From NCBI RefSeq assembly GCF_910592395.1, contig NC_088312.1, positions 21,275,292-21,339,291 on the forward strand: a stretch of 64,000 bases of DNA. The letters are read 5' to 3'. A program made the translations under genes and the position numbers. Of this stretch, positions 6,192 to 34,694 are shown piece by piece. The DNA is from Lineus longissimus (taxonomy: Eukaryota; Nemertea; Pilidiophora; Heteronemertea; Lineidae). Positions within the stretch are counted from its first letter, which is position 1; each line of letters opens with the position of its first letter. A model generated the notes under the pieces. It had not been told where the DNA came from. It searched no databases and saw nothing but the letters and a program-made list of their open reading frames with translations.

Positions 6192-6422
6192 TCACATATT
6201 CTGCTCCAAACTGTGCACTAAGGCATGTCTCTTCAAATGATGCAGATGCTTAAACCCTCTGTGACAGACTTCGCACGAAAACGGTCTCTCATCGGTATGT
6301 CTGCGCATGTGGGACCTCAGATGGGAGGGGCTCTGGAATGGCTGGTGACAGACCTCGCACATGTGGCCTATGCTCCGCTCAGACCCTGGGAGGTCAGGCA
6401 CTCCGCATGGCTGTGGAAGACC
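6192..6422 (-). CDS. Alternative terminal exon ZF-28 (two fingers, last of array)
   Basis: Opens tcatttcag|GGTCTT, phase 0, 76 residues. CEVC with helix QSPSHLRSH, HTDERPF linker, CEVC with helix KHLHHLKRH. The most distal finger exon, about 25.8 kb from common exon 2. Confidence 0.8.
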   Translation of the reverse strand, partial: GLPQPCGVPDLPGSERSIGHMCEVCHQPFQSPSHLRSHMRRHTDERPFSCEVCHRGFKHLHHLKRHALVHSLEQNM

Positions 6423-6593
6423 CTGAAATGATAAGAGAATATGAACACAGGTTAGAGAAATCCCTATAAATATACCAAGGCCAAATTTCTCTTTTGTGGT
6501 GACTCCACCGGATTTGTGACTATCCTAGAAAAGGTTGTGACTAGGACACAGCACTCCTCCTAAAAGAGGATGTGACACGTATGACAATGGGTG

Positions 6594-6701
6594 ATATGAA
6601 TAAAGACTAGCAAATGCTTTTACTTCAATTTTGTAGAGAAAGGCCAAGTGTAAATGTACATGGAGTTTTAGATAAAAGCATTTGCTAGTCTTTATTCATA
6701 T
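6594..6701. mobile_element. Hairpin MITE carrying AATAAA
   Basis: ATATGAATAAAGACTAGC at the left is mirrored by GCTAGTCTTTATTCATAT at the right. On the minus strand its AATAAA (6691-6696) lies about 350 nt after the stop codon of ZF-27. Confidence 0.65.
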
Positions 6702-7046
6702 GGCCCAATAACTGGGAGTAAGGGACAGGAGAAGTAATCATGGCAAACCTGTTCCAAATGTGTTTTATCGTGTAAATGATGTACTGACTGTAGGCCCAGA
6801 CCACTGGAAATGAGAGATGAAATCAAACGACTTAATGTCATAACATTACAAGAACCTCCTCTGCTTTGGGAGCAAAAAAGTCACAGGCCAAGATCGAGGG
6901 TGGTGAATTCTTGATTGAAAAGTTCTTGATTTGAAAGTTGATAATTTCTATTAATAAGAAGCAAGATTTCTATCAGAAAGTAGATGAGGTAGATGATTTC
7001 GATTAGAGAGAGAGAGACTTCCAATAGAAAAGCAGGAGGTTTACTT

Positions 7047-7292
7047 TCAAAAGTTTGGTTGATATCCTTGGAGTGTCCCATGGAGGTGGCTAAGTGAATG
7101 TCTTTTGAGATGCTGCTGCTGTCTAAACCTCTTGTGACAGACTCCACACACGAATGGACGTTCATCAGTGTGTGTACGCATGTGTACACGGAGATGGGAC
7201 GGGCTTTGGAACTGCCTGGAGCATATGTCACAGAAGGGCAAGTTTGTCTTTTCAGTGGATGTGTGAGATTGGCGAGCAGACAGCAGCAAGCC
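7047..7292 (-). CDS. Alternative terminal exon ZF-27 (two fingers)
   Basis: Opens ttcttccag|GGCTTG, phase 0, 81 residues. CDIC with helix QSPSHLRVH, HTDERPF linker, CGVC with helix RQQQHLKRH. Sister of ZF-28. Confidence 0.8.
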   Translation of the reverse strand, partial: GLLLSARQSHTSTEKTNLPFCDICSRQFQSPSHLRVHMRTHTDERPFVCGVCHKRFRQQQHLKRHSLSHLHGTLQGYQPNF

Positions 7293-7462
7293 CTGGAAGA
7301 AGAAGAGATTAGGTTTAGCGTTGGGGGTTTAGTGGTGGCTGTTAATGCTCAAGGCTGCTCTCACCTAAGGAGATACAAGGACAAAATTGTAGCAAGGCAA
7401 CACAGGTGACACCCTTTAACCCGATTAGCGTACCGATTTTAAAATCCAGACACGTTTTCAGC

Positions 7463-7771
7463 CTACAGCATTCCATATATCTTCCTATGCTTATTCATAA
7501 AGTACTTATTAAAGGACTGTTTGCCACATGTCTCGCACGTCTCCGGTTTGCCTTCTTTATGTATCTGAGCAATGTGAATCTGGAGATGGCCGTTCTGGCG
7601 GAATCGGTCACCGCAGCGGTCGCACTTGAATGGTTTTTCTCCAGTGTGAATCATCATGTGCCGCCTGAGATCGGTCGACGATGAGAAAATCTTGTTACAG
7701 AACGAGCAAACTTTCACGGTGAATTCGTCGCTGCCGATTTGAACTTTTGAAGTCATACGCGGGGTGCCCAT
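7463..7771 (-). CDS. Alternative terminal exon ZF-26 (two fingers plus a relic)
   Basis: Opens atcattgcag|ATGGGC, phase 0, 102 residues. CSFC with helix [13 protein letters not shown] with helix RQNGHLQIH; then CETC...[10 protein letters not shown], a third finger lacking its final His. Confidence 0.8.
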
Positions 7772-7909
7772 CTGCAATGATACCAATTGAAACGTCATGA
7801 ACAGATTTAAGGGCGAATAATGGCAAGGTGGGGAACTATGTTTAGGGGTCCATGTTGTGTAATTGTGCTGTTCTAAGCTGGTTCAACTGTTGGGATGAAG
7901 AGAGAGACA

Positions 7910-8345
7910 ATTCTGGTCTCACTGCAGTCTTCAACTTCAAAACAGAGGTCCAACGGCCGTCTTCAACTGCACAATATAGGTCTCACTACACAACAATGGC
8001 AACAGTGCAGTCTTCGACTTCACAACAGTAGTCTCTCTGCAGTCTTAACTCCACAACAGTGGTCTCTCTTCGACTGCAAAACTGGTCTCAAGGTAGTCTC
8101 GACTGCCCAACAGTGGTCTCACTGCAGTCTTCAACTGCAAAAAAATGGTCTCACTGCAGTCTTTAACTGCAATACAGTGGTTTCACTGCAGTCTTTATCC
8201 ACACAACAGTCATCTCACTGCAGTCTTCAACTGCACAACATGGGTCTCTGCAGTCGACAACTGCAAAACAGTGGTCTCACTGCATTCTTAACAACACAAC
8301 AGTGGCTTCATTCCAGGCTTCAACTGCATACCAGTAATCAACAAT
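7910..8345. repeat. Minisatellite, about 33 bp
   Basis: Repeats of 'cagtggtctcactgcagtct' plus 'tcaactgcacaa', period about 32-33 bp, 12-13 imperfect copies, between ZF-26 and ZF-25. The 150-codon plus-strand ORF here is a by-product of the period. Confidence 0.75.
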
Positions 8346-8752
8346 AGTGTCCCTGCACTACAGGCAACAAGAGGTCTCGCAGTATACCCCAGGATACAAG
8401 TGATGTGGGTCACATACATCGTGAATTAACTGGATAGTTGGGAGTCACGTTACTGTATCAACATCAATATCAGTGGTCTCACAGTTGCGAGTCTGATCAC
8501 CAAATATCCTGTTTCCTTCGGACAGGTCCAACACGAACAGAAGCAAGTCATTTTATAACAAAGTGTACAAAAATGTTTCTTTATTCATTATATTATAATC
8601 ATCTTCAATTAAATATCCCAGAAAGCGTTCTGCCAGATTAATATCAATCACAAGTTTTTTCTGTTCAAATAATTAACACGTTAGCAGATTGAAATAAACA
8701 TCGAACTAAAGAGAACTGATAGCACTGCTATTAAATAGCACTGCTATCAAAT

Positions 8753-8925
8753 CAGTGGAACCACCCTTACCAGACACCTCTGTAAGCAGTGCACCCTCTC
8801 TATTAGGAACAGTAATTTTGGTCCAAAATAGGTCGTTTTGCTACAATTTAACCTATGTAATCAGGACACCTCTCTATTAAGCATTTATCATTCCCAATGG
8901 TGTCCTTAATAGAGAGATTCTACAA
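8753..8925. mobile_element. pogo/Tigger-like MITE, copy 3 (diverged)
   Basis: Left end CAGTGGAACCACCC, decayed right end AGAGATTCTACAA. Lies between zinc-finger exons ZF-25 and ZF-26. Confidence 0.65.
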
Positions 8926-9131
8926 TATATGGTGAAGAAGATAATAAGCAAAGCATCTGGCATAAAAATGCAACACTGAACATTCAAAAGGGGTTACCCC
9001 TGCAATAAAACTGGACAAGAGTGAAAATCAAACAATTTGGATTCGATGCACCCAACACAAATTTGACTTTTGGTCAAAAAGCGATGTCTTTTCTTAAAAC
9101 AAGTGACGGTCAGTCCCAGTGCAACTTTTTT

Positions 9132-9458
9132 CTACAATAGCTGGAGTTTGTCCGCATGATTTTTCACGCAATGCCAATTCAGATGCGACTTTTGATTAAA
9201 CCTATGATCACAGTAGCGACACCTATAAGGTTTCTCTCCTGTGTGGATACGAATGTGTCGCTCCAACTCGGCCGGGCGCCGGAACCCGCGCCCGCAGTGT
9301 GGGCACGCATGGCGCTTGGGGTACGGCTTACGTTCTCCCGATCCGAAAGACTGGTGCAGATTTGAAGACGGGAGGGACTCGGTCTGGAAGCTATGCGTTC
9401 CAGTACTTTGTTGACGATGACCATGCTTAGACTGAGAGGACTGTGTAGATATTTGATA
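9132..9458 (-). CDS. Alternative terminal exon ZF-25 (two fingers)
   Basis: Opens atcgttccag|TATCAA, phase 0, 108 residues. A Ser/Gln/His-rich leader, then CPHC with helix RRPAELERH and CRYC with helix [15 protein letters not shown] on the minus strand at 8585-8580 marks a likely 3' end. Confidence 0.8.
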
Positions 9459-10056
9459 CTGGAACGATATAATGATTAAAGGGAATAAGTTGACCAAATG
9501 AAACCATCACAAGATTTGATTGAGAAACCTCGCAGTATGTACTTCCTTCCAAGTTCCATGCTTAATAACCTTTGTGGCTTGGGCTATTCAGAGAGAATAT
9601 TAGTATGTATGATTTACCAACTGCTAATATATCACAGTCTTCATTCTAGGTTTTTCTATCCAAAACAGTTCGACATCAAAACAGCAGCGAGCAAAAATTT
9701 TAAATTGACTGTAAGGAACACATTGCAGAACTACATGTATTAGCATTGAGAGGATTTCCTTCATGGTCTTTTCAATGACACACACTGAAGAAAATGCAAA
9801 GACTGACCATGAACCAGCTCTACGGTAAATGTAGCTCTACGGTAAATGTAACTCTACGGTAAAGGTATTAGCAGAGCTGCCAACCTTCCGTGAGGGCTCT
9901 CGGGAACTGTTTCCAAAAATACCTCTTCTTCAGTACTATTGACAAAAACATCAGTACCTTGAAGGAAATTTTGGGTTTCCTTCAGTACTATTTTACAATT
10001 TTCGAAAAAAATTTCAGGACTAAATGCTGAAAATACTGAAGGGTAGCAGCCATGTG

Positions 10057-10359
10057 TTAGTCGGCATCAAAGATTAAATGATTCCTAGCATAGTGATTCC
10101 TCAGTTGTCCTTTTTGTGCAAACGCTTTCCCGCACTGAGAACATTCATATGGTTTCTCTCCTGTATGAATACGTATGTGACGAGCGAGCTCCGTCGGTCG
10201 CATAAACGCATGGTCACAAAACGAACAAACATGGCGTCTCGGCCGAAACTTTTGCTGTAATGGCTTGGGTCGATCGCGGAGATACTGCTTCACACTCAGC
10301 AGACCACCTAGTAAACTGGTTGGCTCCCTATCTGTGGCGTTCATATCAGGTTGGTGGTA
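10057..10359 (-). CDS. Alternative terminal exon ZF-24 (two fingers)
   Basis: Opens catcttgcag|TACCAC, phase 0, 100 residues. CSFC with helix [13 protein letters not shown] with helix AQKGQLRNH; preceded by a basic patch (KFRPRRH). Confidence 0.8.
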
Positions 10360-10988: not shown

Positions 10989-11348
10989 CTAATTGGGTAA
11001 CAGACAAGGCACACCTGAGTCATCAAGAAACATATGGTGGACTGTGATCATGTGTCTTTTGAGAGATGATTTAACAGAGAATTTCAAATCACATTGGCCA
11101 CATGGAAATGGCTTGTAGCCAGTATGGGAGCGTGTATGTCTTTCCAATTCAGCGGGGCGAACGAAGGCCCGATCACAAACAGTGCAATGAAATCGCCTCG
11201 TCTGTCTTCTTGTGAAACTGATAAGTCCCGGTGGCCGTTTGTCAGTGACGGTCGGGGTGTCCCTTGTCGTCCAGCTGTAGTCCTTGAGTCCACCATTCCA
11301 CGGCAAAGAGTTATCAAGACAAAGTTGTCCATCGCCGTGAAACAAGGT
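10989..11348 (-). CDS. Alternative terminal exon ZF-23 (two fingers)
   Basis: Opens taattccag|ACCTTG, phase 0, 119 residues. CTVC with helix [16 protein letters not shown] linker, CGQC with helix SVKSSLKRH. Confidence 0.8.
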   Translation of the reverse strand, partial: TLFHGDGQLCLDNSLPWNGGLKDYSWTTRDTPTVTDKRPPGLISFTRRQTRRFHCTVCDRAFVRPAELERHTRSHTGYKPFPCGQCDLKFSVKSSLKRHMITVHHMFLDDSGVPCLLPN

Positions 11349-11948: not shown

Positions 11949-12350
11949 CTACAAATGAGTCGCTGGTCCCTTGTTTTTAATCAACATATCGCAATGTTTC
12001 ATGATCAGATGATTCTTCATGTTCGCCTTGAGCGTGAATCTCCAGCCACAATATTCGCACTCGTACGGTTTCTCCCCGGTGTGTGTCCGCGTGTGCCTTA
12101 CAAGTTCTGCCGGCCGTAAGAATGACTTGCCGCACGTCTCACAAACGTAACGTTTAGGCTTCAACTCGGATACCGATAGTCCGAGTTTAGTCTTGGGCTC
12201 GGATACCGATAGTCCGAGAGAGGTACTTGGAAGAGGCTGTGCCAATGTCAATTGATCTGCCGACTGGCGATTGTGGTATGTAGAACTTGCGGCACCCTCC
12301 CTCATGAAAATTCGAGGCCCAGGCCCAGGCCCAGGTGCGTTCTGAATAAA
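11949..12350 (-). CDS. Alternative terminal exon ZF-22 (two fingers)
   Basis: Opens ctcttccag|TTTATT, phase 0, 133 residues. The leader has a PGPGPGP run and a tandem copy of LGLSVSE(P/L)K. Fingers are CETC with helix LRPAELVRH and CEYC with helix TLKANMKNH. First of four RPAEL-type exons (ZF-22 to ZF-25). Confidence 0.8.
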   Translation of the reverse strand, partial: FIQNAPGPGPGPRIFMREGAASSTYHNRQSADQLTLAQPLPSTSLGLSVSEPKTKLGLSVSELKPKRYVCETCGKSFLRPAELVRHTRTHTGEKPYECEYCGWRFTLKANMKNHLIMKHCDMLIKNKGPATHL

Positions 12351-12911: not shown

Positions 12912-13268
12912 TTATTTGGGTTCAGGGTGAAAACTAATATTTTTCTTTGGATCACATGCTAGCATGTCTCTTTGTTCCTTAAAAGCACTGCACGAACAAA
13001 AGATATGGGTATCCAAGTGAACTTTCTGTGTGAACGTCTTTCCACAATGGCGGCATTCGAATGGTTTTTCTCCGCTATGAACACGGGAATGACGAAGAAG
13101 AAGAGATGCGGCCCGAAATTCCTTTCCACACACATTGCAAGGATGAATGCGCTGTCGTCTGTCGGTGGGTTCATCTAAAACGCGGACTGAAGTCCCTGGG
13201 GGCCAGTCTGGCATTGAATCCATTTCCGTCGCATCTTGGAAGGGAAGGTGAAGTCCAGAGAATCGGTT
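12912..13268 (-). CDS. Alternative terminal exon ZF-21 (two fingers)
   Basis: Opens cccttgcag|AACCGA, phase 0, 118 residues. CNVC with helix [13 protein letters not shown] with helix TQKVHLDTH followed by IFCSC, so the second His position is altered. AATAAA (12916-12911, minus) overlaps the stop codon itself. Confidence 0.75.
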
Positions 13269-13550
13269 CTGCAAGGGAGATTGGAACTGAATCAATTTTT
13301 TTAACTCTGTGGCCCTATTCCATGGAGTTTAGCCCCTAAAAGAGACCAGACAGCCTAATGGACTGAAGCTGAAAAGAAGGCTAAAGAATGCAATGGCATG
13401 AAGCACGAGTTGAAACCATTTTGATAAAATCTTATGTTTACAAAAGTCTTAACCAATATCACGATAAAATCATATTCAAATCCAAGGTCTTAACAATGGA
13501 ACAGACTAATATTAGTCTTAAGGCCTTATCCTCTAACACATCCAAGTCCT

Positions 13551-13901
13551 TCAATAAAGTCCCTCCTGCATTTGCAGTTGCATTTGAGGCTGATGCTTTG
13601 CAACGAAGTGATTTTTCAGATGATGTTTTTCACGGAAGCGTTGGCCACACTCCAGGCAGGCATGTGGTTTTTCTCCTGTATGGAGCCTCATATGACGGAC
13701 AACATTTTCACGCGAGCGGAAAGGTTTCTTGCACACTTGACAAGTGAACTGGTGCCTCCAATCCACTAAATTGCCTGCATTTGTATGACTTAAGGATGTT
13801 CCTGGGTTCGACCTCGACCCTAAATTACAGCCGGACAAGTTTTGGGGTAATTGTTGTCCAACGGCAGCCATTTTATTGCCCATGCGATAGTCATATCTCG
13901 A
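13551..13901 (-). CDS. Alternative terminal exon ZF-20 (two fingers)
   Basis: Opens catttccag|TCGAGA, phase 0, 116 residues. CQVC with helix RSRENVVRH; CLEC with helix REKHHLKNH, nearly the same as finger 2 of ZF-19; Gln/Met-rich tail. Confidence 0.8.
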   Translation of the reverse strand, partial: SRYDYRMGNKMAAVGQQLPQNLSGCNLGSRSNPGTSLSHTNAGNLVDWRHQFTCQVCKKPFRSRENVVRHMRLHTGEKPHACLECGQRFREKHHLKNHFVAKHQPQMQLQMQEGLY

Positions 13902-14241: not shown

Positions 14242-14676
14242 TCAACTTTGATTCGGACTGCCTACGTGACCTCCCTGGGCCACACCATCATGACCAACGT
14301 CACCTCCTGGGCCTATGTATTCAGCAAATCCATGCCGCGCAGACCTAATGATATTATGTTTACAAGCCAAGTGGTTGGTCACATGATGTTTCTCACGGAA
14401 GTCTTTCCCACACTGCGGACAGGCGAAAGGTCTCTCCCCCGAGTGAACTCGCATATGACGTGCTAAATTAAGACGCTGCGAGAAGCGCTTATTGCACAAA
14501 TTGCAAGGGTATTTTCGAAATTCAATGTCGTAATTTCTTTGCCCAGGATTCGAATACTGTGAATAGATGTCTCTCGAGTCGTTCATTAGGCCTGAAGAGT
14601 GATGAACGTCCGAATTTTGTTCGTTTCTGTCCAGGTCTGTTTGGGTTAAACCGTGTTGGGCTGACCGAGATTCCCA
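14242..14676 (-). CDS. Alternative terminal exon ZF-19 (two fingers, Gly/His tail)
   Basis: Opens gttttacag|TGGGAA, phase 0, 144 residues. CNLC with helix SQRLNLARH, CPQC with helix REKHHVTNH, then a 40-residue Gly/His-rich tail (GPGGDVGHDGVAQGGHVG). Confidence 0.8.
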   Translation of the reverse strand, partial: WESRSAQHGLTQTDLDRNEQNSDVHHSSGLMNDSRDIYSQYSNPGQRNYDIEFRKYPCNLCNKRFSQRLNLARHMRVHSGERPFACPQCGKDFREKHHVTNHLACKHNIIRSARHGFAEYIGPGGDVGHDGVAQGGHVGSPNQS

Positions 14677-15133: not shown

Positions 15134-15484
15134 TCAATTGTTATCCCCAAAACATTCTGGATGTTTTGAGACCTTGTGCCTGGTCACATGGTGTTTCATA
15201 CGGAAACACCGACCACAGATATCGCAAGAGTACGGCCGAATGTTGGTGTGAATGCGCCGATGTCGAGAAAGGTCTCCAGGGTTCAATGTAAAATCCTTTC
15301 CACAGACTTCACAAATATGAGCCTTCGTTTGTTTCCAAGTTCGAGGAACATTAGTAGCAGCTCGGAATATTTTGACGGGGCAAGCATCAGACGTCTCGGA
15401 GATCAGCATCAGATCGGCAGCACCAGGATTGGAGTGTCGGATTTGATTTTCAATTTGGTTGGTAGTTCGGGACTCTTGCAACAT
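15134..15484 (-). CDS. Alternative terminal exon ZF-18 (two fingers)
   Basis: Opens ttctggcag|ATGTTG, phase 0, 116 residues. A 55-residue leader, then CEVC with an unusually long finger (helix TLNPGDLSRH, one residue extra) and CDIC with helix RMKHHVTRH. The linker is HTNIRPY, not HTGEKPF. Confidence 0.8.
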   Translation of the reverse strand: MLQESRTTNQIENQIRHSNPGAADLMLISETSDACPVKIFRAATNVPRTWKQTKAHICEVCGKDFTLNPGDLSRHRRIHTNIRPYSCDICGRCFRMKHHVTRHKVSKHPECFGDNN

Positions 15485-16644: not shown

Positions 16645-16941
16645 TCAACCCAAGGACTTCCGTTTACTCTCCAGATACTCTTCCGGATGAACGGACACCA
16701 CATGAGAAGTGAGATGGGCCGACTGACGAAACAGCTTCCCACAAAATTCACAATCATAAGGTTTCTCCCCAGTATGCGTTCGAAAATGCACCTTCCACTT
16801 AGTGCGCGTCGTAAACGTTTTTGAACATAGCGTACACTCATACACAGTGTACCCTCGCGATAGCAAAGACTTTACAACCGAGTCAGTGCTCGTGTCCCCG
16901 GGCTCAATGCGTTTCAATCCAACTTCAGGAGGACTCGACAA
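16645..16941 (-). CDS. Alternative terminal exon ZF-17 (two fingers)
   Basis: Opens taattgcag|TTGTCG, phase 0, 98 residues. CTLC with helix TTRTKWKVH (Trp replaces the core Leu) and CEFC with helix RQSAHLTSH; basic tail ESKRKSLG. Sister of ZF-16. An AATAAA at 15847-15842 (minus) is the first downstream signal. Confidence 0.8.
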
Positions 16942-17816: not shown

Positions 17817-18116
17817 TCAATTCTGTACTTCAGGAAGGCAGCACAATTCTGGATGAGCAGTGACAATATGGGTACTTAGATGTGCCGATTGACGATAAGT
17901 CTTCGAACAATGGTTACATCTGAATGGGCGGGCGCCCGTATGTACTCGCCAATGGATACGATAACGCGACCGATTTGGGAAGCCCTTATGACATTCCGGA
18001 CACTCATAATAGGTGGTGCCGGTGATCTGATCGAACTTGGGATTCGGAAATTCAATGTCTTCCTGTATCTCGGCACCACCAGATGTCCGTCCGACCGTTA
18101 CCATGGGTCGAGGTGA
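17817..18116 (-). CDS. Alternative terminal exon ZF-16 (two fingers)
   Basis: Opens ctttccag|TCACCT, phase 0, 99 residues. A 40-residue leader, then CPEC with helix PNRSRYRIH (Tyr replaces the usual core Leu) and CNHC with helix RQSAHLSTH. Confidence 0.8.
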   Translation of the reverse strand, partial: SPRPMVTVGRTSGGAEIQEDIEFPNPKFDQITGTTYYECPECHKGFPNRSRYRIHWRVHTGARPFRCNHCSKTYRQSAHLSTHIVTAHPELCCLPEVQN

Positions 18117-18639: not shown

Positions 18640-18852
18640 TTAAGTCTTTGGCAAAGAACTTTTGTGAACGAGTGCAACGTGCGTTCTAAGATGAGGCCTC
18701 TGCTTGAAACCTTTCCCACAAATGGGACAAGAATAAGGACGTTCTCCGGTGTGGACGCGAACATGGTCCACGAGCCTCCAGCGTGTCGGGAAGACTTTAT
18801 GGCACATGTGGCACGAATGGAGGTTGGGGAAAGCCGTATGAACTGGGGCAGA
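18640..18852 (-). CDS. Alternative terminal exon ZF-15 (two fingers)
   Basis: Opens tttgcag|TCTGCC, phase 0. Finger 1 CHMC with helix PTRWRLVDH; finger 2 CPIC with helix KQRPHLRTH; tail SSLPKT. A minus-strand AATAAA at 18371-18366 lies about 270 nt past the stop. Confidence 0.8.
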
Positions 18853-19054: not shown

Positions 19055-19291
19055 CTATTTACTCTCCACACCATGAACGAGACCACTATGCGTGCGAAGA
19101 TGCGTCTTCTGTTTGAAGCATTTTCCACAGATGTCACAGCGGTATGGTCGTTCTCCAGTATGGACACGGACGTGATCCGATAATCGCCGTCGGGTCGGAA
19201 AGATTTTATCGCACAAATGACACAAGAAGATGGTATGGAAGTTCGAAGTGGGAATCCATGGGGTGCCTACATTAGTCTGCTGTGACAGCTG
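19055..19291 (-). CDS. Alternative terminal exon ZF-14 (two fingers)
   Basis: Opens atctttcag|CAGCTG, phase 0, 78 residues. Finger 1 CHLC with helix [14 protein letters not shown] linker, finger 2 CDIC with helix KQKTHLRTH. Closest to ZF-15. Confidence 0.8.
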
Positions 19292-20877: not shown

Positions 20878-21084
20878 TCAAATTGTTTGTTGGTGTACTA
20901 ACATCATGTGTGTTTTTAGATGAGGCTTCTGCCTGAAAGCCTTGTCACATATTTGACAAATGAACGGCTTTTCGCCTGTATGGATACGAAGGTGAACGGA
21001 TAGTCTCCAGCGCGTTGGGAAAGCCTTGCTACATATTGGGCATGAGTGGGCGGACAGGCCTGGCATACCAGTCTCTCTCAGGGA
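20878..21084 (-). CDS. Alternative terminal exon ZF-13 (two fingers)
   Basis: Finger 1 helix PTRWRLSVH; finger 2 CQIC with helix RQKPHLKTH. It ends five residues after the last His, so the fingers are practically the C-terminus. Confidence 0.85.
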
Positions 21085-21434
21085 CTGCAAAGAGAGAGTG
21101 ACAAGGATTTAGGAAAAGGGCAGAAATGCGGCTCGGTGCTGCAAGAGAACGCATTGGAAAATCCAGTGGATCCTGCTGCTTCCGCAAGAATACCTAAATC
21201 TGCCAGGCCTGCCATTCACAACGACCACTGCAAATATTGCCCATGAATAATCAAGTGTGCAAGTCGCAGATTCGTGGTGTTTCCACTTCAGCAATAGGCA
21301 AGTCACTGTACATTTGTAAGTTTCTGCTTTGGTGACTTCTAGAGATAGCCAAGTCATTATACACAACAATACAAGTGCACTAAGTCACTGATTTGTGACA
21401 ATAGTAACAATAGGCAAGCCACTATACATGCAGG

Positions 21435-21656
21435 TCACTGATTTGGAGGGTTTCTATGGATGTCACTGTGCACGACCATATGACCCTGCAGGTGACCTTT
21501 CTGTCTAAACGCCTTGTCACAGATGTGACATCTATATGGCTTTTCTCCTGTATGGACACGAAGATGAACGGAGAGATGCCAGCGCGCTGGGAAAATCTTG
21601 TGACATATTGGGCATGAATGAATGGTCAGGCCTGCTATACCAGTCTCTCTTGGGGG
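21435..21656 (-). CDS. Alternative terminal exon ZF-12 (two fingers)
   Basis: Opens tttgcag|CCCCCA. Finger 1 CPIC with helix PARWHLSVH; finger 2 CHIC with helix RQKGHLQGH. Tail HRNPPNQ. Confidence 0.85.
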   Translation of the reverse strand, partial: PPRETGIAGLTIHSCPICHKIFPARWHLSVHLRVHTGEKPYRCHICDKAFRQKGHLQGHMVVHSDIHRNPPNQ

Positions 21657-21940: not shown

Positions 21941-22162
21941 TCACTGATTCAGCAACGAAGGCATGTCACTGTGCACAACCATATGAGTGCGCAGGTGACC
22001 TTTCTGTCTGAACGCCTTTTCACAGATGGAACAAACGAAGGGTTTCTCTCCAGTATGGACGCGGAGATGCGCAGAAAGTTTCCAGCGTGTCGGAAACACC
22101 TTGGGACAGAGGGAACATGAATGTATCATGCCTTGGCCGGGACTCGAGGCTTCTAGCAGTGA
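21941..22162 (-). CDS. Alternative terminal exon ZF-11 (two fingers)
   Basis: Same design as ZF-4. Finger 1 helix PTRWKLSAH. Finger 2 has CSICEKAF and helix RQKGHLRTH. Tail MPSLLNQ. Intact sister of the broken ZF-10. Confidence 0.85.
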   Translation of the reverse strand, partial: SLLEASSPGQGMIHSCSLCPKVFPTRWKLSAHLRVHTGEKPFVCSICEKAFRQKGHLRTHMVVHSDMPSLLNQ

Positions 22163-22740
22163 CTGCAAAGAGAGAGAGAAACCTCGGTCAGAACTCGCAC
22201 TAGGGTTTTGTGTGGGGCAGGTTGAATACTGGGTACACTGCCCCGGCTATTGGTAATTTTTGAGGTTGCTTCTCACTGATCTGGCTGGTTATCCGTGGGT
22301 AGTAAAGGTATCTCACTATGCACTGTAAATATATGAGTGCGCAGGTGGCCCTTCTGTCTGAAAGCCTTCCCACAGATAGAACAAAACAAATGGTTTCTCT
22401 CCTGTGTGGACACGGAGATGCGCAGAAAGTTTCCAGCGTGTCGGAAACACCTTGGGACAGAGAGAACATGAATGTATCATGCCTTGGCCGGGACTCGAGG
22501 CTTCTAGCAGTGACTGCAAAGAGAGAGAGAAACCTCGGTCAGAACTCGCACTAGGGTTTTGTGTGGGGCAAGTTGAATACTGGGTACACTGCCCCGGCTA
22601 TTGGTTATTTTTGAGGTTGCCTCTCACTGATCTGGCTGGTTATCCGTGGGTAGTAAAGGTATCTCACTATGCACTGTAAATATATGAGTGCGCATGTGGC
22701 CCTTCTGTCTGAAAGCCTTCCCACAGATAGAACAAACAAA
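22141..22740. repeat. Recent 351-bp tandem duplication covering a finger exon and intron
   Basis: Sequence from 'gactcgaggcttctagcag' at 22141 recurs at 22492 and runs nearly identical through the intron into the next exon's finger-2 region. It shows directly how the exon array grows. Confidence 0.8.
22316..22513 (-). pseudogene. Terminal exon ZF-10, frameshifted in finger 2
   Basis: Acceptor and finger 1 (helix PTRWKLSAH) are intact and match ZF-11. At 22383-22386 the plus strand has one more A than the sister exons (gaacaaaacaaa against gaacaaacaaa). The second finger's first Cys becomes Leu, the frame changes, and translation ends in an unrelated tail (...SYIYSA). The product would keep one finger. 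It is a newly broken copy or an assembly error. Confidence 0.75.
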
Positions 22741-22866
22741 TGGTTTCTCTCCTGTGTGGACACGGAGATGAGCGGAAAGTTTCCCACGATTCGGAAACAC
22801 CTTGGGACAAAAGGTACAGGAGTGTACGACCATGCCTCCAACAGGACTTGAGGTTTCCAGCAAGGA
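22624..22866 (-). CDS. Alternative terminal exon ZF-9 (two fingers)
   Basis: Same design as ZF-4. Finger 1 helix PNRGKLSAH, finger 2 helix RQKGHMRTH, tail DNQPDQ. Its 3' half and following intron are nearly identical to those of ZF-10, offset about 351 bp. Confidence 0.85.
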   Translation of the reverse strand, partial: SLLETSSPVGGMVVHSCTFCPKVFPNRGKLSAHLRVHTGEKPFVCSICGKAFRQKGHMRTHIFTVHSEIPLLPTDNQPDQ

Positions 22867-22994: not shown

Positions 22995-23231
22995 CTAGTT
23001 TGGCAGGTTCCAAGAGGATAAAGAAGACAGGTCACTATGCACGACCATATGAGTCCCTAGGTGACCTTTCTGTCTGAAAGCCTTCCCACAGATAGAACAA
23101 ACAAATGGTTTCTCTCCTGTGTGGACACGGAGATGAGCGGAAAGTTTCCCACGATTTGGAAACACCTTGGGACAAAAGGTACAGGAGTGTACAACCATGC
23201 CTTGGAGAGGACTTGAGGCTTCCAGCAAAGA
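22995..23231 (-). CDS. Alternative terminal exon ZF-8 (two fingers)
   Basis: Same design as ZF-4. Finger 1 CTFC with helix PNRGKLSAH, identical to ZF-9. Finger 2 helix RQKGHLGTH, with a shorter His spacing (HMVVH) than ZF-4 to ZF-7. Confidence 0.85.
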   Translation of the reverse strand, partial: SLLEASSPLQGMVVHSCTFCPKVFPNRGKLSAHLRVHTGEKPFVCSICGKAFRQKGHLGTHMVVHSDLSSLSSWNLPN

Positions 23232-23355: not shown

Positions 23356-23595
23356 CTAGTTTGGCAGGTTCCCAGAGGGTAGAGAAGATAGGTCACTATG
23401 CACTGTAACTATATGAGAGCGCAGGTGGCCTTTCTGTCTGAAGGCCTTCCCACAAGTAGAACACACAAAGGGTTTTTCTCCAGTGTGGACACGTATATGT
23501 GCAGAGAGTAAGCCCCGATTCGGAAACACCTTGGGGCAGAAGGAACAGGAGTGTATGACCATGCCTCGGAGAGGACTTGAGGTTTCCAGCAAGGA
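23356..23595 (-). CDS. Alternative terminal exon ZF-7 (two fingers)
   Basis: Same design as ZF-4. Finger 1 helix PNRGLLSAH, finger 2 helix RQKGHLRSH, tail GNLPN. Confidence 0.85.
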   Translation of the reverse strand, partial: SLLETSSPLRGMVIHSCSFCPKVFPNRGLLSAHIRVHTGEKPFVCSTCGKAFRQKGHLRSHIVTVHSDLSSLPSGNLPN

Positions 23596-23707: not shown

Positions 23708-23950
23708 TCACTGATCTGGCTGGTTTCTGGAGGGTAGTGAAGACAAGTCACAATGCACTGTAATTATATGAGTGCGCAGGTGGCCTTTCTGTCTGAAGGC
23801 CTTCCCACAAATTGAACACACGAAAGGTTTTTCTCCAGTGTGGACGCGGATATGAGTTGAGAGTAAACTCCGCTTGGGAAACACCTTGGGGCAGAAGGAA
23901 CAGGAGTGGATGACCTTGCCTCGAACAGGACTAGAGGTTTCCGGTAAAGA
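23708..23950 (-). CDS. Alternative terminal exon ZF-6 (two fingers)
   Basis: Same design as ZF-4. Finger 1 helix PKRSLLSTH, finger 2 helix RQKGHLRTH, tail RNQPDQ. A minus-strand ATTAAA at 23679-23674 is the only poly(A)-like hexamer noticed within the ZF-4 to ZF-13 run. Confidence 0.85.
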   Translation of the reverse strand, partial: SLPETSSPVRGKVIHSCSFCPKVFPKRSLLSTHIRVHTGEKPFVCSICGKAFRQKGHLRTHIITVHCDLSSLPSRNQPDQ

Positions 23951-24075: not shown

Positions 24076-24318
24076 TTATTGATAAGGCAGGTTCCCAGAG
24101 GGTGGTAAGGACAGGTCACTATGCACTGTAATTATATGAGTGCGCAGGTGGCCTTTCTGTCTGAAGGCCTTCCCACAAGTAGAACACACAAATGGTTTCT
24201 CGCCAGTGTGGACACGAATATGTGCACTGAGTAAGCTCCGATTTTGAAACACCTTGGGGCAGAAGGAACAGGAGTGTATGACCTTGCCTCGAACAGGGTT
24301 TTGGGTTTCCAGCAGAGG
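24076..24318 (-). CDS. Alternative terminal exon ZF-5 (two fingers)
   Basis: Same design as ZF-4, opening tttgcag|CCTCTG. Finger 1 helix QNRSLLSAH, finger 2 helix RQKGHLRTH, tail GNLPYQ. Confidence 0.85.
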   Translation of the reverse strand, partial: PLLETQNPVRGKVIHSCSFCPKVFQNRSLLSAHIRVHTGEKPFVCSTCGKAFRQKGHLRTHIITVHSDLSLPPSGNLPYQ

Positions 24319-24454: not shown

Positions 24455-24697
24455 TCACTGATTTGGCAGGTTTCCGGAGGGTAGTGAAGACAGGTCACTA
24501 TGCACTGTAAACATATGAGAGCGCAGGTGGCCCTTCTGTCTGAAAGCCTTCCCACAGATAGAACACACAAATGGTTTCTCTCCTGTGTGGACACGGAGAT
24601 GTGCAGAAAGTGTCCCACGACTTGGAAACACCTTGGGACAGTGGGAACATGAATGTATGACCATGCCCCGCACAGGACTTGAGGCTTCTTGCAGTGA
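24455..24697 (-). CDS. Alternative terminal exon ZF-4 (two fingers)
   Basis: First of a run of close copies. Opens at ctctttgcag|TCACTG, phase 0. Finger 1 has CSHC and helix PSRGTLSAH; linker HTGEKPF; finger 2 has CSIC and helix RQKGHLRSH, then a short tail ending NLPNQ. The tract before the acceptor (ttctctctctctttgcag) is almost unchanged in ZF-5 to ZF-13. Confidence 0.85.
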   Translation of the reverse strand, partial: SLQEASSPVRGMVIHSCSHCPKVFPSRGTLSAHLRVHTGEKPFVCSICGKAFRQKGHLRSHMFTVHSDLSSLPSGNLPNQ

Positions 24698-25524: not shown

Positions 25525-25827
25525 TTAGTCCGTCTGAATAATTAAGTTAGCCTGTATTTCTGAAGTGTGCACAGATACTACATGAGTATGAAGATGGGAT
25601 TTCTGGCGGAAAGCTTTGTTACAGTATTTACAGACATGAGGTCGTTCTCCTGTATGTGACTGGATATGCCGCGCCAGTTTGCTCGGCGTAACGAAACGTT
25701 TATTACAAATGGGACACTGGTGACCCATCGATCGACCCGCCAGCGGCCAGTTACCAAAACCAGACGTTTGACCGAGGTTTTGGGTTCTTGGTTCACGTTG
25801 GGCTGCACGCTTCACGCCTGACACATA
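25525..25827 (-). CDS. Alternative terminal exon ZF-3 (two fingers)
   Basis: Opens at ttcttgcag|TATGTG, phase 0, 100 residues. A basic Gln/Arg stretch leads into CPIC...RHIQSH, the TGERP linker and CKYC...HVVSVH. A minus-strand AATAAA at 25239-25234 supports a private 3' end. Confidence 0.8.
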   Translation of the reverse strand, partial: YVSGVKRAAQREPRTQNLGQTSGFGNWPLAGRSMGHQCPICNKRFVTPSKLARHIQSHTGERPHVCKYCNKAFRQKSHLHTHVVSVHTSEIQANLIIQTD

Positions 25828-26218: not shown

Positions 26219-26374
26219 TACTATGAATGAAAGTTAAAACCTGTGTCAGGAAACAGTCCGGATATTGTATTGTATGTGTACTGGAATTACTCGTGGCTGA
26301 CAGATGATGAATAGGAGCCTTGGATTAGAATGTCCGAAGCAACCAAGACGATGTAATAATGTCGAGAGAATCCT

Positions 26375-27016
26375 TTACTCTCTATCCTCTTTAACTTCAA
26401 TTGTTCCACCTGCACTGCTCAGACTAACACTTCTTGTTTCAACCGACTCTCCCAAAGCTTGAACACTCGGTGGATATTCGACAGTTGACGTGGCAACATG
26501 ACCAGATGGCACAATACGAGAACTAAAATCTAACAAATTTAAACCAGAACTTGGATAACCAGTGCCGATTCCATCGCCAAGTCTCCCAGAATAAATAGGC
26601 CTATCCGAACCGGATGAAACACCAGCACCAGTACACAGAGAAACACCACCGCAAAAACTGAGAGGAACACCGATTCCAGTATTCAGAGGAACACCAGTTC
26701 CTGTATTTAGAGGAACACCACTAAAACAAGATCCAGTCTTCTCATGACGATGCCTTGACGAATTAAACGGAAACTTTTTCCCACAAAATCGACAAGGGTA
26801 ACGTTTTTCTCCAGTGTGAACGGTCTTGTGTTTCTGCAAATACTCAAACTTAGAGAATTTTTTCTTGCACCAAGTACACTCGAATATTTTTTCACCGTGT
26901 GCTTGTTCGGTGTGATTGCGCAAAAGGTGTATTTTTAGATCCTCGGGTGTTTCAAACGGCCGCCAACAAATAGTGCACATCCTGTCCTTGTTGCGTTCAA
27001 TCATTTGTTGTTGCAA
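26375..27016 (-). CDS. Alternative terminal exon ZF-2 (three fingers, long tail)
   Basis: Opens at ctacttgcag|TTG, phase 0; 213 residues. Three fingers match ZF-1 one for one (CTIC, CTWC, CRFC...RHRHEKTGSC). They are followed by the longest tail in the array, with a Gly-Val-Pro-Leu-Asn-Thr-Gly repeat and a final EVKEDRE. ZF-1 and ZF-2 are clearly duplicates. Confidence 0.8.
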   Translation of the reverse strand: MQQQMIERNKDRMCTICWRPFETPEDLKIHLLRNHTEQAHGEKIFECTWCKKKFSKFEYLQKHKTVHTGEKRYPCRFCGKKFPFNSSRHRHEKTGSCFSGVPLNTGTGVPLNTGIGVPLSFCGGVSLCTGAGVSSGSDRPIYSGRLGDGIGTGYPSSGLNLLDFSSRIVPSGHVATSTVEYPPSVQALGESVETRSVSLSSAGGTIEVKEDRE

Positions 27017-27399: not shown

Positions 27400-27765
27400 C
27401 TAACAATTCTGACTGCTATCTGGTTGATATCTGAATCCACTGGACTGGGACATTGCTCGCAAACCCAACTGACAAGCCTTCATTTTCTCGTGCCGGTGGC
27501 GCGCTGAATTAAAATGGAACTTCCTGCCGCATCCAAGTCGGCACGTATAGCGCTGTTCTCCGGTATGAATACGGATATGCACGTGGAGATAATCCGGCGT
27601 GGAGAACCGCTTCTTACAGTAAACACACTCAAACTGTTTGCCAGAGTCATGAACTTGGGTATGGGAGTTTACAATATGACGTGTGAGCTCCGATGGGTCA
27701 GGGAGCATTTGTTGGCAAATGGGACAAACGTTTGCCCCGTTCTCGTTTCTGTCAGGTGCTGCCAC
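27400..27765 (-). CDS. Alternative terminal exon ZF-1 (three fingers)
   Basis: Opens at ctccttccag|GTG, phase 0, and has its own stop; 121 residues. Finger 1 is CPIC...H-x4-H (residues 14-35), finger 2 CVYC...HIRIH (47-67). Finger 3 is the odd CRLGC form ending RHRHEKMKAC, a C2HC type shared only with ZF-2. An AATAAA on the minus strand at 27174-27169 could end this transcript. Confidence 0.8.
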   Translation of the reverse strand: MAAPDRNENGANVCPICQQMLPDPSELTRHIVNSHTQVHDSGKQFECVYCKKRFSTPDYLHVHIRIHTGEQRYTCRLGCGRKFHFNSARHRHEKMKACQLGLRAMSQSSGFRYQPDSSQNC

Positions 27766-29482: not shown

Positions 29483-30343
29483 GGCTCTAGGAAAATTCGT
29501 CCCCGGAAAATTCATCCCCGGAAAACTCGTCCCCGGAAAATTCGTCCCTAGGAAAATTCGTCCCCGGAAAATTCGTCCCCGAGGAAAATTCGTCCCCGGA
29601 TAATTCGTCCCCGAGGATAATTCGTCCCTGGAGAATTCGTCCCCGAGGATAATTCGTCCCTGGAAAATTCGTCCCCGAGGAAAATTTCATCCCCGGAAAA
29701 TATGTCCACTAGGATAATTCATCCCTGGGAAATTCGTCATCGAAGATAATTCGTCCCCGGAAAATTAAACAAAAGTTGAAAGTTTCTGACATTAGTTTCT
29801 AGTAATAACTACTACTTACTACTTTCGACTTTTCTCATTCATTATATCTCTCTTTACTACCCTACTAGCTAGTTACCTACTCCACTCTTTTCATAGTAGG
29901 TAGAGGTAGGCAGGCGAAATAATTTTTTTTTTCGAATAAGTATTTTTACTGGTCAGAATGAAAGAAAAGCTCTAAATTCTCAATAAAATATTTCGCCTGC
30001 CTACTTCCACCTACTATAAAAATAGTGGGGTAGGTAACTGGCTAGTATGGTAGTAAAGAGGGATGTTACACTGAATGAGAAAAATCGAAAGTATTAGTTA
30101 TTTTCGACAAGACTAAGAGTCCTAGAAAGTAAAGTCAGAAACTTTCAACTTTGTAAAATATTCTGGGGACGAATTATCCTCGGGGACGAACTTTCCAGGG
30201 ACGAATTATCCTCGGGGACAAATTTTCCGGGGACGAATTATCCTCGGGGACGAATTATCCTCGGGGACGAATTTTCCGGGGACGAATTTGCGGGGACGAA
30301 TTTTCCGGGGACGAATTATCCGGGGACGAATTTTCCTGTAACC
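29483..30343. mobile_element. 861-bp fold-back element with 8-bp target duplication
   Basis: Direct copies of CTTTTAGG flank it (29475-29482 and 30344-30351). Both ends carry ~16-bp tandem units (ggaaaattcgtccccg), oriented oppositely. The inner arms are also inverted (aaaagttgaaagtttctgac, cctactagctagttacc, aggcaggcgaaata). It has no coding capacity, and the Ser/Gly/Asp-rich ORF across the left arm is an artefact. It lies in the intron between common exon 2 and ZF-1. Confidence 0.8.
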
Positions 30344-30823
30344 CTTTTAGGACATTATTGGCAGACCCAAGTGGGGCCCAATTCACGATCTCATCCATGA
30401 TACAGTGGAGAACCCTGTCCCATGTCAAAAGAAGCCAGCCACCCAGGGAAAATGTCCGTGATGACCAGACATGGTGGTTTGCCATGTGGCCTGAAAGTCA
30501 TGTTATGTAACTTTAGAGTTTGCCATATTTGCAAAAGGATCATGGCTGATGATTTTGTGTCTTTAATTCAAAAAGGATCTGCTCTATGCACAACAATTTA
30601 TGAAACATCAAGTATATGGTACAATCTAAATCAACATGCATTTTTTATGAATGAAAGACACTATGTTCTTCATTTATATCAGACTTCTCTCGTCAATACA
30701 ATATTGTCCAACTTTTTTAAAGGAATCATCCCCCACCTTGTTGAAGTTTACTTCCCAATCGAGAAGACAAATGTACAGGCTATCTTATATATAGTAAACA
30801 TACTGCACAAGACTATTCCATTT

Positions 30824-31513
30824 TTACATGTCGGTTCTGTTGTTTAGCTCATGGGTTTTGCAACCAAAGAACATTTGATACCTTGAACTCAGTTTTTGGC
30901 TCATCCCCCCCCATTGGACAAAATACCAGACTGTGGAATCACCCCGTTCTACTGTTAAATGTCCACACTTGATATCGTCAAAGTGTAGTGACATGATCTG
31001 ATCTACTGAAGTGGTGCTTGCAAAGTCTATAATTGAAACAAGTAAGGAAAGGTATCTGGATGGGATGATTTTCTTCAGGAAACAACTTCCACCATCAGTG
31101 ACAATCTCAGTAGGGAAAGGTAAGGAAAAGTACTTAGATTTGTCAGCAAACAACTTGACCACGACCCCACAACACATGGGTGATGCCATACATTTCACAT
31201 CGCTCAACAAAACACTGACGTAAGGATAATTAAACGAACAGAAAATACAGTTCTCAGTTGCCAAGCCTGTAGTATTATTACATCGCATCATCAGATCAGG
31301 ACAAAACTTTACACCCTCAGCATCTCTTTTCTTCCAGGAGAGTGCCGATCGCTCAGACGCTTGGCTGTTCAGTTGTTCTGAAATGACTATTCCATCACCT
31401 GTAAGCCAGTCCGGATTCAAGGACAGCAAGACATCAGCAGTCACATCGTTAGGAGCTTTTTGTACTACACCCAAATACCTATTCTTTACAAACTTCACTC
31501 CCAGAAGATGCAA
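30824..31513 (-). pseudogene. Unrecognised 229-codon open frame in the large intron
   Basis: A long uninterrupted frame (NPDWLTGDGIVISEQLNSQ, YPYVSVLLSDVKCMASPMCC, FPTEIVTDGGSCFLKKIIPS) on the same strand as the zinc-finger locus. The first ATG comes only about 75 codons in, an in-frame stop lies just upstream, and no phase-0 acceptor joins it to the common exons. I recognise no family. It may be an old retroposed fragment or a lone exon. Confidence 0.25.
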
Positions 31514-31724
31514 GCACCTTTATCCTATTAAAATTAGGCAGAAGATCTTTTTTTGGTTTGTGTGTCTTTCATTCATAGAGAAAAGTTGTCCAAGGAATGA
31601 ATGTCATGGCCGATACAAGTTTATCAAATCCTTACAAGTTAGATCACCAACACTGAACTGAAAGTCGGGCATTGCTTACGACGACCAACCACATCTCAAT
31701 TCATGAATCTTCAGGATTTGCCTA

Positions 31725-31909
31725 AGGCCGAAGTTACATAGACCTCATTCGTTCATTTACCACGAGTCACTTTCCGGGTTTTTCTTTCATTCCTCGGTGA
31801 ATGCACGGTGAATGCACGCCACAAGGCCGTGCATTCACCGAGGAATGAAAGCAAAAGGGGAAAATGAGTCCTGGGAAATGAACGAATGAGGTCTATGTAA
31901 CTTCGGCCT
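31725..31909. mobile_element. Inverted-repeat MITE family B, copy 1
   Basis: AGGCCGAAGTTACATAGACC at the left is mirrored at the right by GGTCTATGTAACTTCGGCCT. Inner arms carry 'cattcctcggtgaatgcac'. A second copy sits in SKA3 intron 8. Confidence 0.75.
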
Positions 31910-32174
31910 AAGAGGACGCAGATTTCAATATTTCTTTTTAGTGAAGATCCCAAGTCCCGGCATGCACACAGCTTCAGCTTGGTCTTAAATCCCATCTAAG
32001 ACCAACGAGATTTCAAGATATTCTCTGGGAGGGCCCCCAACCCACATGATAACTGCCTGCCAGAGGCATGCTTATGCTGTCCTGCCAAGCCACGTAGTTT
32101 ACATGACATTGTAGTTTCTGGCCAAGACCATTCATTCTCTGGACAACGAAATAAAGAAAGGTATCTTTACCCAC

Positions 32175-32654
32175 CTGTGACATTTCCATACTTGAACCTT
32201 CGCCAAAACTATCTTGCCGTTCTGGCGTACTGCGTAATGGATTCATTATCGAGTCTTCAAACCTCGTCGGACTACTAAGAGAATGTCCTTGGAGCGATTC
32301 CACGTTAGAAATCACAGGCGCTGTAGTTTTATGATCACTGGCAAATGAACGTGTACTGTCATGTAACATAGACGAGGAACTAAGAGTTTTTGAAGCGAGA
32401 CTGTCACTTGACATGAATGAAGTTTGAGCGCCACCTATACTTGAACCATGAGCACTAGAAACAGGTGACTGCCGCCGCACACCAGTTGCAGCGCTTAAAT
32501 GTCCTAAACTCGCAAGACTGGAAGATGGAGAGGCTTGGCGGAAAGATGAGATGCCTGACCCGGCTGGTCTAGAATGTCGGATGTCGGCCCGGATATTTGC
32601 CCGTTTGGGTTCATCGTCCTCGATGACTATCACGTCGCCATCATCGGATGCACT
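32175..32654 (-). CDS. Common exon 2: Ser-rich linker with SUMO-interacting motif
   Basis: It lies between tttcttttccag and CACAG|gtgggt: 480 bp, phase 0 at both ends, 160 residues. Near its start DVIVIEDDEP is a textbook SUMO-interacting motif, a hydrophobic core followed by acids. The rest is Ser/Thr-rich and low in complexity (SSSLASLG, SLASKTLSSSSM), probably disordered. It joins in frame to any of the 28 finger exons because all of them open in phase 0. Confidence 0.8.
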
Positions 32655-32924
32655 CTGGAAAAGAAACCAAGCAGTTTAATTTTGCTTTCAACTGAAATTA
32701 CATGCAGAAGTAATCCCTCAATGCAATTTCAGAGAATTCAACTGTACAAGAGATGCTCGATATGTTGAAATTTCTGTAATGATTTAGAAGAGGAAAAGGT
32801 CCTTTACAAGGACAGACAACCCACCCTGTGCACTAGTTTGAGATTGAAACTGGTCACTGGAACCAGTGCCCCTGTGAGTGTCCACAACCTAAGTTTCATA
32901 TGTTCATCAGCATATCACACTCAC

Positions 32925-34694
32925 CATTGGTATGCTGGGCTGCACCTTCCCTCCAGACTGGGACATCAGCAGACGACACCTGTTCTCCACATTCTCACGT
33001 TTTTTCCTCTCCCGTTCCGCCATGTCTTTATACGACTGCGCAAGTCGCTTCTCCATCTCCATTGATTCCCGCAGACCTTGAATCTGCGCTGCCATCTCAC
33101 GAGTTTCGCGCACCATCTGATCCTGAACCTTCTTTAACAAATTGTCCTTCACCACATGCTCATTTTTCAAATATCGCACATCGAATTCAAACTTTTTAAC
33201 CTGAGCATTTCGTGTCGTTAACTCTTGTTTAACTTTTGTCAATTCGTCGGTTTTCATTATCAACTCAGCTTCCACAGTTTTTAGTCTTTCAGTTTTTGTG
33301 CGCAATTCCTCCTGACACTTTGACAATACTCTATCTTTGGATCCAAGGTCATCCTTCAACGCTGACATTTCTTCCAGAACTGCCTTCTCGTCACAATTTT
33401 CAAACGACGTCAGCGTGTCCTCACGCTGATATAACTCAGCCTGATAGTCGTTTAGAAGATTAGTCAATTCAGTCCAAGTCCTTGTCATCATGGAACCTTT
33501 CAAGTCTAATTCAGTTCTCATAGTCTGCATTTTTAAACGCTTAGTCGGCCTAGGGTCGTCATCACGACCAAGGCCTGGAGGGGAGCTAGCTAAATCTCGT
33601 TTGGAAGGACTGGCACTTGACGACCATTCTACGGTACTCAGCGACCGAGTCAAGTCTAAGGATTTCCTAATTGAAAATGCATCAACACTCGGACTAGAAG
33701 CATTTGTTTCCTCCACAACAGTGTCCGCTTGAGGTTCACGCTTCGGAGAAATTTGCGCCATATTGGAATTATCAATGTCATAACCAGAAGTTCCTATCGC
33801 AGCTGTCTCATCACTTTCAGCAGTTTTATTCACAGCTTCGGACTCAAATTCTGCAATCTGTTTCAGAATATTTGCCGATCGTTGCCTGTCAATGTATAGC
33901 GGAGAAGTCTTGTCTACTTTTGATGAATCCTCCTCCTCCTCCTTTCCAGAAAGATTTTCGTCCCCTTCTAGTCTCGAGTCCTCATCGTCCATCCCTGGAT
34001 ATACCCCTTCCTCATATTCACCCTCTTCGTCTTCATCTTCCAGCTCAGGATGCTCACCCTCTTCGAAGTCTGACCCTTCCATCTCATGATCGTCGCGACC
34101 AGCAACTTTAAATTGTCGACCAACAAAGTCTGAATGTTCACCTTCCAAGTCAAGATTTTCACCGTCAGCATCTGGATTTTCACCATCAATGTCTGAGTGC
34201 TCACCCTGAATGCCAAGGTGCTCATGCTCAAGGTCTGGGTTTTCAACCGGAACATCTGAATCTTTGCCTTCAAATTCTGAATGCTCACCCTCCGAGCCTG
34301 CATTGTCTAACATCGGATTTTCATCAATCGATTCCAGGTGCTCAGCCTCAAACTCTGCGTTCTCATCATCATAGTCTGAAAGCTCTTGCTTGATTTCGGA
34401 CTGACTGAATCCACCTTCTGGATTTTCAGTTTCCCCACCAAAATTAGACTCGGCGACTTTGTCGAACTCCAGATGTCCTTCTCCAAAGGTTGGTAACTTT
34501 GGATTTTCCTCATGGTCTTCTCCATTTTCCTCTTCATCAAATTCACCCCCCTCCTCCTCATCCCCCTCCATGTCGGGATTTCCGTAATCGGAGAAGTCCT
34601 CTTCACACTCGCCTTGCCCTTCGAACACAGTACCAGACTTGTTTTCATCCATTTCGGATTCCATTTCCATTAGCTGTGAATTCGGTTCATCCAT
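32925..34694 (-). CDS. Common exon 1 of the zinc-finger isoform locus: acidic + coiled-coil protein
   Basis: The start ATG at 34694-34692 lies 25 nt inside an exon that begins after an acceptor (ctgttccag) near 34720, so a non-coding exon lies further upstream. The 590 codons end at IPM|gtgagt, phase 0. Residues 1-270 are extremely acidic, with loose 10-12-residue repeats (EGEHSDIDGENPD-like). IKQELSD near residue 100 fits an acidic-tailed SUMO site. PTKRLK near residue 390 is a likely nuclear signal. Residues 400-580 form a long coiled coil, opened by TWTELTNLLNDYQAEL, which is shared with the plus-strand paralogue. No BTB, SCAN, KRAB or ZAD domain is seen. Likely a nuclear dimerisation and regulatory module joined to the zinc fingers downstream. 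Confidence 0.85.

Follow-up and report, generated by a model that had tools for sequence, protein, structure and literature searches.

The gene LOC135488680 lies on the minus strand of the window analysed here, a stretch of 64,000 nucleotides from chromosome 5 of the ribbon worm (nemertean) Lineus longissimus, and consists of two common exons followed by 28 zinc-finger exons on the same strand, which probably serve as alternative ends of one transcription unit. Common exon 1, whose coding part (32925..34694, 590 amino acids) equals residues 1-590 of the NCBI protein P0001, encodes an acidic N-terminus and then a heptad coiled coil with the motif WTELTNLLNDYQAEL, and ends at the donor ATG|GTGAGT. 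Common exon 2 (32175..32654) encodes 160 amino acids rich in serine, is in phase 0 at both ends, carries the motif DVIVIEDD, which we take to be SUMO-interaction-like, and ends at the donor CAG|GTGGGT; the lengths of both common exons are multiples of three. An acceptor at 34724, found by eye upstream of the exon 1 ATG, indicates that a further 5' exon exists. The Pfam scan of common exons 1 and 2 returned no family at E 0.1 (no BTB, KRAB, SCAN or ZAD), and the Pfam matches of P0001 at E 0.01 are zinc-finger models only. The best 60 of 171 matches in a PDB sequence search all fall within the finger region, and no Rfam match was obtained at the gathering threshold.

A six-frame scan of the window found 62 C2H2 patterns, 57 of them in the minus-strand array (6213-27726) and three in a plus-strand neighbour; the remaining two, at 21363 and 32867, are spurious. 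The array comprises 28 finger exons but 29 open frames, since exon 10 accounts for two of them. The original prediction of two common phase-0 exons followed by 28 finger exons on the same strand is confirmed, and its coordinates are right. Exons 1 (27400..27765) and 2 (26375..27016) contain three fingers each, the latter with a long C-terminal tail, and exon 3 (25525..25827), which is used in NCBI isoform X4, contains two. Exons 4 to 9 (24455..24697, 24076..24318, 23708..23950, 23356..23595, 22995..23231 and 22624..22866) and exon 11 (21941..22162) form a tandem array, and between them exon 10 (22273..22513) has a frameshift between fingers 1 and 2, with the first-frame stop at 22316. These are followed by exons 12 (21435..21656), 13 (20878..21084), 14 (19055..19291), 15 (18640..18852), 16 (17817..18116), 17 (16645..16941) and 18 (15134..15484), the last with a first finger one residue longer, and by exons 19 (14242..14676), 20 (13551..13901), 21 (12912..13268), 22 (11949..12350), 23 (10989..11348), 24 (10057..10359), 25 (9132..9431), 26 (7463..7771), 27 (7047..7292) and 28 (6192..6422).

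All 28 finger exons carry their own stop, and in 28 of 28 the best-scoring acceptor (27765, 27016, 25827 and so on to 6422) is in phase 0, which bears out the earlier claim that every finger exon starts at such an acceptor and ends in its own stop. For each exon, every AG within the open frame upstream of finger 1 was scored with generic acceptor frequencies; the first finger of exon 18 was placed by hand and the second frame of exon 10 was omitted. In exons 21 and 26 an AG of higher score exists, but it lies outside the open frame. The chance of 28 phase-0 acceptors is (1/3)^28, or 2e-7 when, since tandem copies are not independent, only 14 similarity clusters are counted as independent. Among the 8169 AG sites of the window, the finger-exon acceptors rank at a median of the 99.5th percentile and a minimum of the 88th; the weakest belongs to exon 25, where 9431 and 9458, both in phase 0, have similar scores. 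Further phase-0 terminal exons were looked for with a minimum acceptor score of 4 and a minimum length of 55 amino acids, a threshold that 5 of the 28 known exons do not reach. One candidate came up in intron 2 (28270), without a Cys/His pattern, and beyond exon 28 there was none. Intron 2 also holds two short-period repeat arrays in opposite orientation (29489-29766 and 30157-30337; GGAAAATTCGTCCCC and its complement), which could form a long hairpin past the exon-2 choice donor.

Two proteins, P0001 and P0002, were obtained when protein sequences were searched with the common part. P0001, annotated as 'uncharacterized protein LOC135488680 isoform X4 [Lineus longissimus]' (850 amino acids), corresponds letter for letter to exon 1, exon 2 and terminal exon 3, with a junction from 32175 to 25827 and the stop of exon 3 as its end; it is the one read of the 14 members of its 90%-identity cluster. 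P0002 is a JGI record of 644 amino acids that aligns to 57% of the searched region at 83% identity and looks like a first exon, left unspliced, from a related species; exon 1 (the acidic part and the coil) thus appears conserved between species. A further JGI protein, P0101, contains an exon-2 sequence flanked by what look like the same splice sites. The conservation on which the original prediction had made its wider claim conditional is therefore seen for the common exons (P0002 and P0101) only.

The gene belongs to a large family. When the genome was searched with exon 1, 42 matches were obtained, of which 41, counting the window gene itself, lie on chromosome 5 (C5) and one lies on C11. 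Another search, with a sister coil, yielded 48 rows, matched the window gene at E 3.5e-13 and added three C5 loci (2808524, 6735007 and 6737107, the last matched in two pieces). The coil family thus has at least 45 loci, 44 on chromosome 5 and one on C11, many of which share the architecture of the window gene, so that the array described originally as one locus is real, but the frame was too small. Two matches, one near 5682300 and the head-to-head neighbour at 21312365, were weak in both searches (E 6e-5 to 1.3e-4), though the architecture of the neighbour speaks for it. Two weak coil pieces, one on C1 (with a stop) and one on C12, were not counted as loci, and no relatives were confirmed in viral contigs. 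Six of the seven neighbouring coil pairs less than 5 kb apart are head-to-head, including LOC135488680/LOC135488094, as is another close pair (6735007 and 6737107) from the sister-coil search, an arrangement which suggests shared divergent promoters. In a genome survey of fingers, in which 150 of 3914 first-look candidates were scored, 69 lie on chromosome 5 (9 expected by length), and all 69 are found within 60 kb downstream of a family coil and on the coil strand, against 4% expected. The median open frame of these 69 is 128 amino acids long, that of the 81 candidates elsewhere 449.

Twenty of the 41 further exon-1 matches were read as sister loci, 10 kb each. A VIEIPDSPP-like motif of the VIEIPDSPPTLDLS type, again SUMO-interaction-like, occurs in exon 2 of 16 of the 20, and the DVIVIEDD of the window gene is a diverged form of this family motif. 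With its coil match and its exon phases, the window gene fits the family pattern of a coil exon with a W/YQ-L motif, a phase-0 exon 2 with such a motif and DNA-binding terminal exons in phase 0. The exon-2 donor has G at position +4 (GTAGGN or GTGGGT) in 16 of the 18 compared, window included; the exceptions are GTAAGT in locus L025 and GTGAGT in the neighbour gene, two loci in which no more than one or two ends are visible. Downstream of the coil, the 20 sister loci contain 55 open reading frames with at least two fingers in sense and none in antisense orientation, and the best acceptor is in phase 0 in 44 of them (p 1.6e-12).

Alternative ends are also visible in the NCBI models of the family. 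A protein search with an alignment of five models, for which the 7992 most word-sharing candidates were scored, gave 218 matches, of which the best 120 were used; the 70 Lineus rows among the matches listed, together with P0001 and P0003, make 72 cluster representatives, which stand for 208 member sequences. These 72 models have 28 distinct N-termini (first 120 residues), and 18 of the 28 occur with at least two tails, having an identical prefix of 236-449 residues and then differing tails, mostly of about 100 amino acids. The split falls at the exon-2 boundary in 17 of the 18 (11 checked against the DNA, six judged from protein); P0054/P0056, one of the 11, part one residue past the boundary, through a shared residue. 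In the exception, P0042/P0058, the two proteins differ at exon 2 itself. Model tails start at acceptors predicted beforehand, for instance at 6744 and 7334 in L022 (P0013 and P0014) and at 5586 and 8475 in L010, and many other tails fall beyond the stretches of sister loci read. The view of interchangeable terminal exons behind an acidic coiled-coil part is accordingly supported by both the P0001 junction and the sister-locus models. Among the 120 matches listed, those from other species extend over no more than 16% of the query, the extent expected from the fingers by themselves, with the exception of P0101, and within these matches the family looks restricted to ribbon worms; P0118 (isoform X19) of Babylonia areolata, considered as a possible mollusc parallel, was set aside, being an ordinary long finger array with 9% of the query matched.

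The ends are of more than one kind. The tails of P0032 and P0039 contain a Tc5-type DNA-binding domain (PF03221), and P0039 also has a CENP-B_N match just below the curated cut-off. Paired finger exons, phase 0 then phase 1, lie at 4356-5492 and 6262-7532 of L013, and the later exon of the second pair is in the NCBI model P0054; at 8293-9174 of L024, P0039 joins a CENP-B/Tc5-type exon serially to the start of a finger exon and so departs from the rule of a single end in each isoform. The common part may thus take any downstream exon with a phase-0 acceptor, most often a zinc-finger exon. That isoforms differ only in the DNA-binding domain fits the window, but some family tails are serial, transposase-type or without a Pfam DNA-binding domain.

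That the common part forms a coiled coil is well supported: the mean spectrum of 27 family coil members (P0001 included) has the heptad periodicity of 3.5, and a single-chain structure model of the sister protein P0013 contains a helix of 198 residues (residues 33-230). The shared coil most likely dimerises the isoforms. The exons of the tandem array are under purifying selection, with a median ratio of nonsynonymous to synonymous substitution rates (dN/dS) of 0.14 in the 30 pairs, out of 55, for which it could be calculated, and the 25 exons with a standard two-finger core show 24 distinct sets of eight predicted contact residues. Variation is concentrated at the contact positions of finger 1, with an entropy of 2.70 versus 1.78 (p 0.019), and within the tandem array the corresponding p is 0.0002. 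Exon similarity drops with distance along the window locus (p 0.0005), from which it would follow that new ends arose by local exon duplication.

Taken together, the evidence argues, at a probability of about 0.9, that one transcription unit makes a family of transcription factors by alternative choice of the terminal exon. It is very improbable that the finger exons are instead separate small zinc-finger genes which lie close together, each with a promoter and a start of its own. An ATG stands in frame after the acceptor and before finger 1 in 18 of the 28 exons, but the other 10 have none, the phase and rank of the 28 acceptors speak against independent starts, exon 3 is spliced to the common exons in isoform X4, and the sister loci show the same pattern. 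Serial splicing of the finger exons into one polydactyl protein, the outcome which the original prediction had named as counting against it, appears just as improbable. Two DNA-binding exons do follow one another in the models P0054 and P0039, which come from two sister loci, but P0001 ends with exon 3, every window exon has its own stop, and from the last finger to 400 nucleotides beyond the stop only one donor matching the consensus at 8 of 9 positions was found, and that past the stop of exon 17. A further alternative is that only part of the 28 exons are used and the others are decaying duplicates, which is unlikely but deserves more weight. It would agree with the frameshift of exon 10, with a canonical polyadenylation signal before the next acceptor in nine exons, and with a P0001 cluster of 14 and not 28 members; on the other side stand the 27 open exons of 28, the mostly high acceptor scores and the low dN/dS among array exons. 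The estimate of about 28 factors should be amended to 27 intact exons and the frameshifted exon 10, with use seen in a model for one.

Several observations weigh against choice among alternative terminal exons, or limit how far it extends through the family. The NCBI 'X' isoforms are computational models and not transcript reads, and one was read for the window gene. In 11 of the 55 sister finger frames the best acceptor is not in phase 0; four of these are the single finger frame in the stretch read (L009, L011, L019 and L025), three resemble the second exon of a serial pair (L010, and L013 twice), and in four a phase-0 acceptor is a close runner-up (L014, L026 twice and L028). Two DNA-binding exons are joined in series in the models of L013 (P0054) and L024 (P0039), and six of ten proteins scanned (P0041, P0043, P0045, P0061, P0071 and P0072), chosen because no Pfam domain had been listed for them earlier, gave no Pfam DNA-binding match at 0.001. 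The predicted contact residues of finger 2 are not unusually variable (p 0.52; array p 0.72), and, with the variation concentrated in finger 1, the isoforms probably have one half-site in common and diverge in the second. AATAAA or ATTAAA precedes the next acceptor after only 9 of the 28 terminal exons, so that those of the tandem array may extend to a common 3' end. In exons 4-14 the distance from stop to next acceptor is 110-350 nucleotides, except after exon 13 (1.6 kb), which together with the few signals makes choice by polyadenylation alone less likely there than a shared 3' end with competition between acceptors. Pairing of an RNA docking site in the first 1.5 kb of intron 2 with selector sequences near the acceptors was not supported (mean longest antisense match 9.39, versus 9.35 in shuffles), and no word shared upstream of the acceptors exceeded the control.

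In the proposed mechanism of terminal-exon choice, the exon-2 donor at 32175 would be spliced to one of the 28 phase-0 acceptors of a shared pre-mRNA, and each chosen exon would add two or three C2H2 fingers and a stop. The junction to exon 3 is present in the NCBI model, and the other 27 exons are predicted to be used in the same way. The isoforms would share the acidic coiled coil and the SUMO-interaction-like part, through whose coil they may pair, and would differ in the DNA-binding end, where finger 1 probably supplies most of the change in specificity; local exon duplication would provide new ends. The best reading is a system of the lola/mod(mdg4) kind, in which a coiled coil and a SUMO-interaction-like motif replace BTB, and which originated independently and expanded along one chromosome. 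A broader proposal, somewhat short of even odds and thus tentative, is that chromosome 5 is a platform of at least 44 coil loci, many having a SUMO-interaction-like exon, with 1 to about 28 ends each, some of them transposase-derived, whose related coils pair into possibly thousands of dimers, with an origin independent of the insect BTB systems.

The plus-strand neighbour in the window, LOC135488094, is a paralogue head-to-head with LOC135488680. Its common exon 1 (37050..37520) contains the same coil motif, its common exon 2 (37796..38128) contains SIVIHSES and is in phase 0 at both ends, and its terminal exon (39017..39433) encodes a transposase-type zinc ribbon (Pfam PF13842). A possible second terminal exon (40524..41030, plus strand, phase 0) with three C2H2 fingers is absent from the NCBI LOC135488094 protein found. 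Elsewhere in the window, plus-strand open reading frames at 55169-58988 may belong to a SKA-complex kinetochore gene (SKA1 Pfam match below the cut-off, 58551-58985), and a minisatellite in which a 45-bp unit is repeated about 59 times occupies 60052-62705.

Among the titles listed in the literature search, which did not extend to work specifically on nemertean or Lineus zinc fingers, none concerns the Lineus coil-zinc-finger family. The main text of the Lineus assembly paper, which gives chromosome 5 as 23.94 Mb, does not contain the term 'zinc finger' (PMC8593623). If the reading is true, the design of one N-terminus with many DNA-binding ends evolved more than once, in another phylum and without BTB. 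The coil loci form a natural series, from one terminal exon seen to 28, which allows direct tests of the origin of the system, of splice-site control and of the capture of new DNA-binding ends.

Several known systems resemble the Lineus family in part. Vertebrate KRAB-ZNF and insect ZAD-ZNF genes form chromosomal clusters which expanded in a single lineage and in which the C2H2 fingers follow a common effector or dimer domain, and the Lineus loci are likewise a clustered C2H2 expansion behind a shared N-terminal part; however, KRAB-ZNF and ZAD-ZNF genes arose by whole-gene duplication and have long finger arrays, whereas Lineus has many short ends behind one common part. In clustered protocadherins, variable 5' exons with their own promoters join a constant 3' part, and the likeness lies in many alternative exons with one constant part, in Lineus in reversed order. 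Broad and fruitless are insect BTB genes in which one N-terminus is combined with many DNA-binding ends, and to our knowledge all known cases of this design are insect BTB genes; the original prediction of a lola-like system outside insects agrees with the organism being a nemertean. Drosophila lola has common N-terminal exons and at least 20 isoforms with many alternative 3' ends, mostly of two zinc fingers each (PMC5127561), and its BTB domain type is reported as arthropod-specific (PMC11426971). The Lineus gene shares this layout, but has a coiled coil and a SUMO-interaction-like exon in place of BTB and is one of at least 45 related loci. In Drosophila mod(mdg4), one common part is combined with at least 30 isoforms (PMC11426971), and to that extent it resembles LOC135488680; its ends are mostly FLYWCH behind BTB and trans-splicing has been reported for it, whereas the 28 ends of LOC135488680 are C2H2 fingers behind a coiled coil and all lie on one strand.

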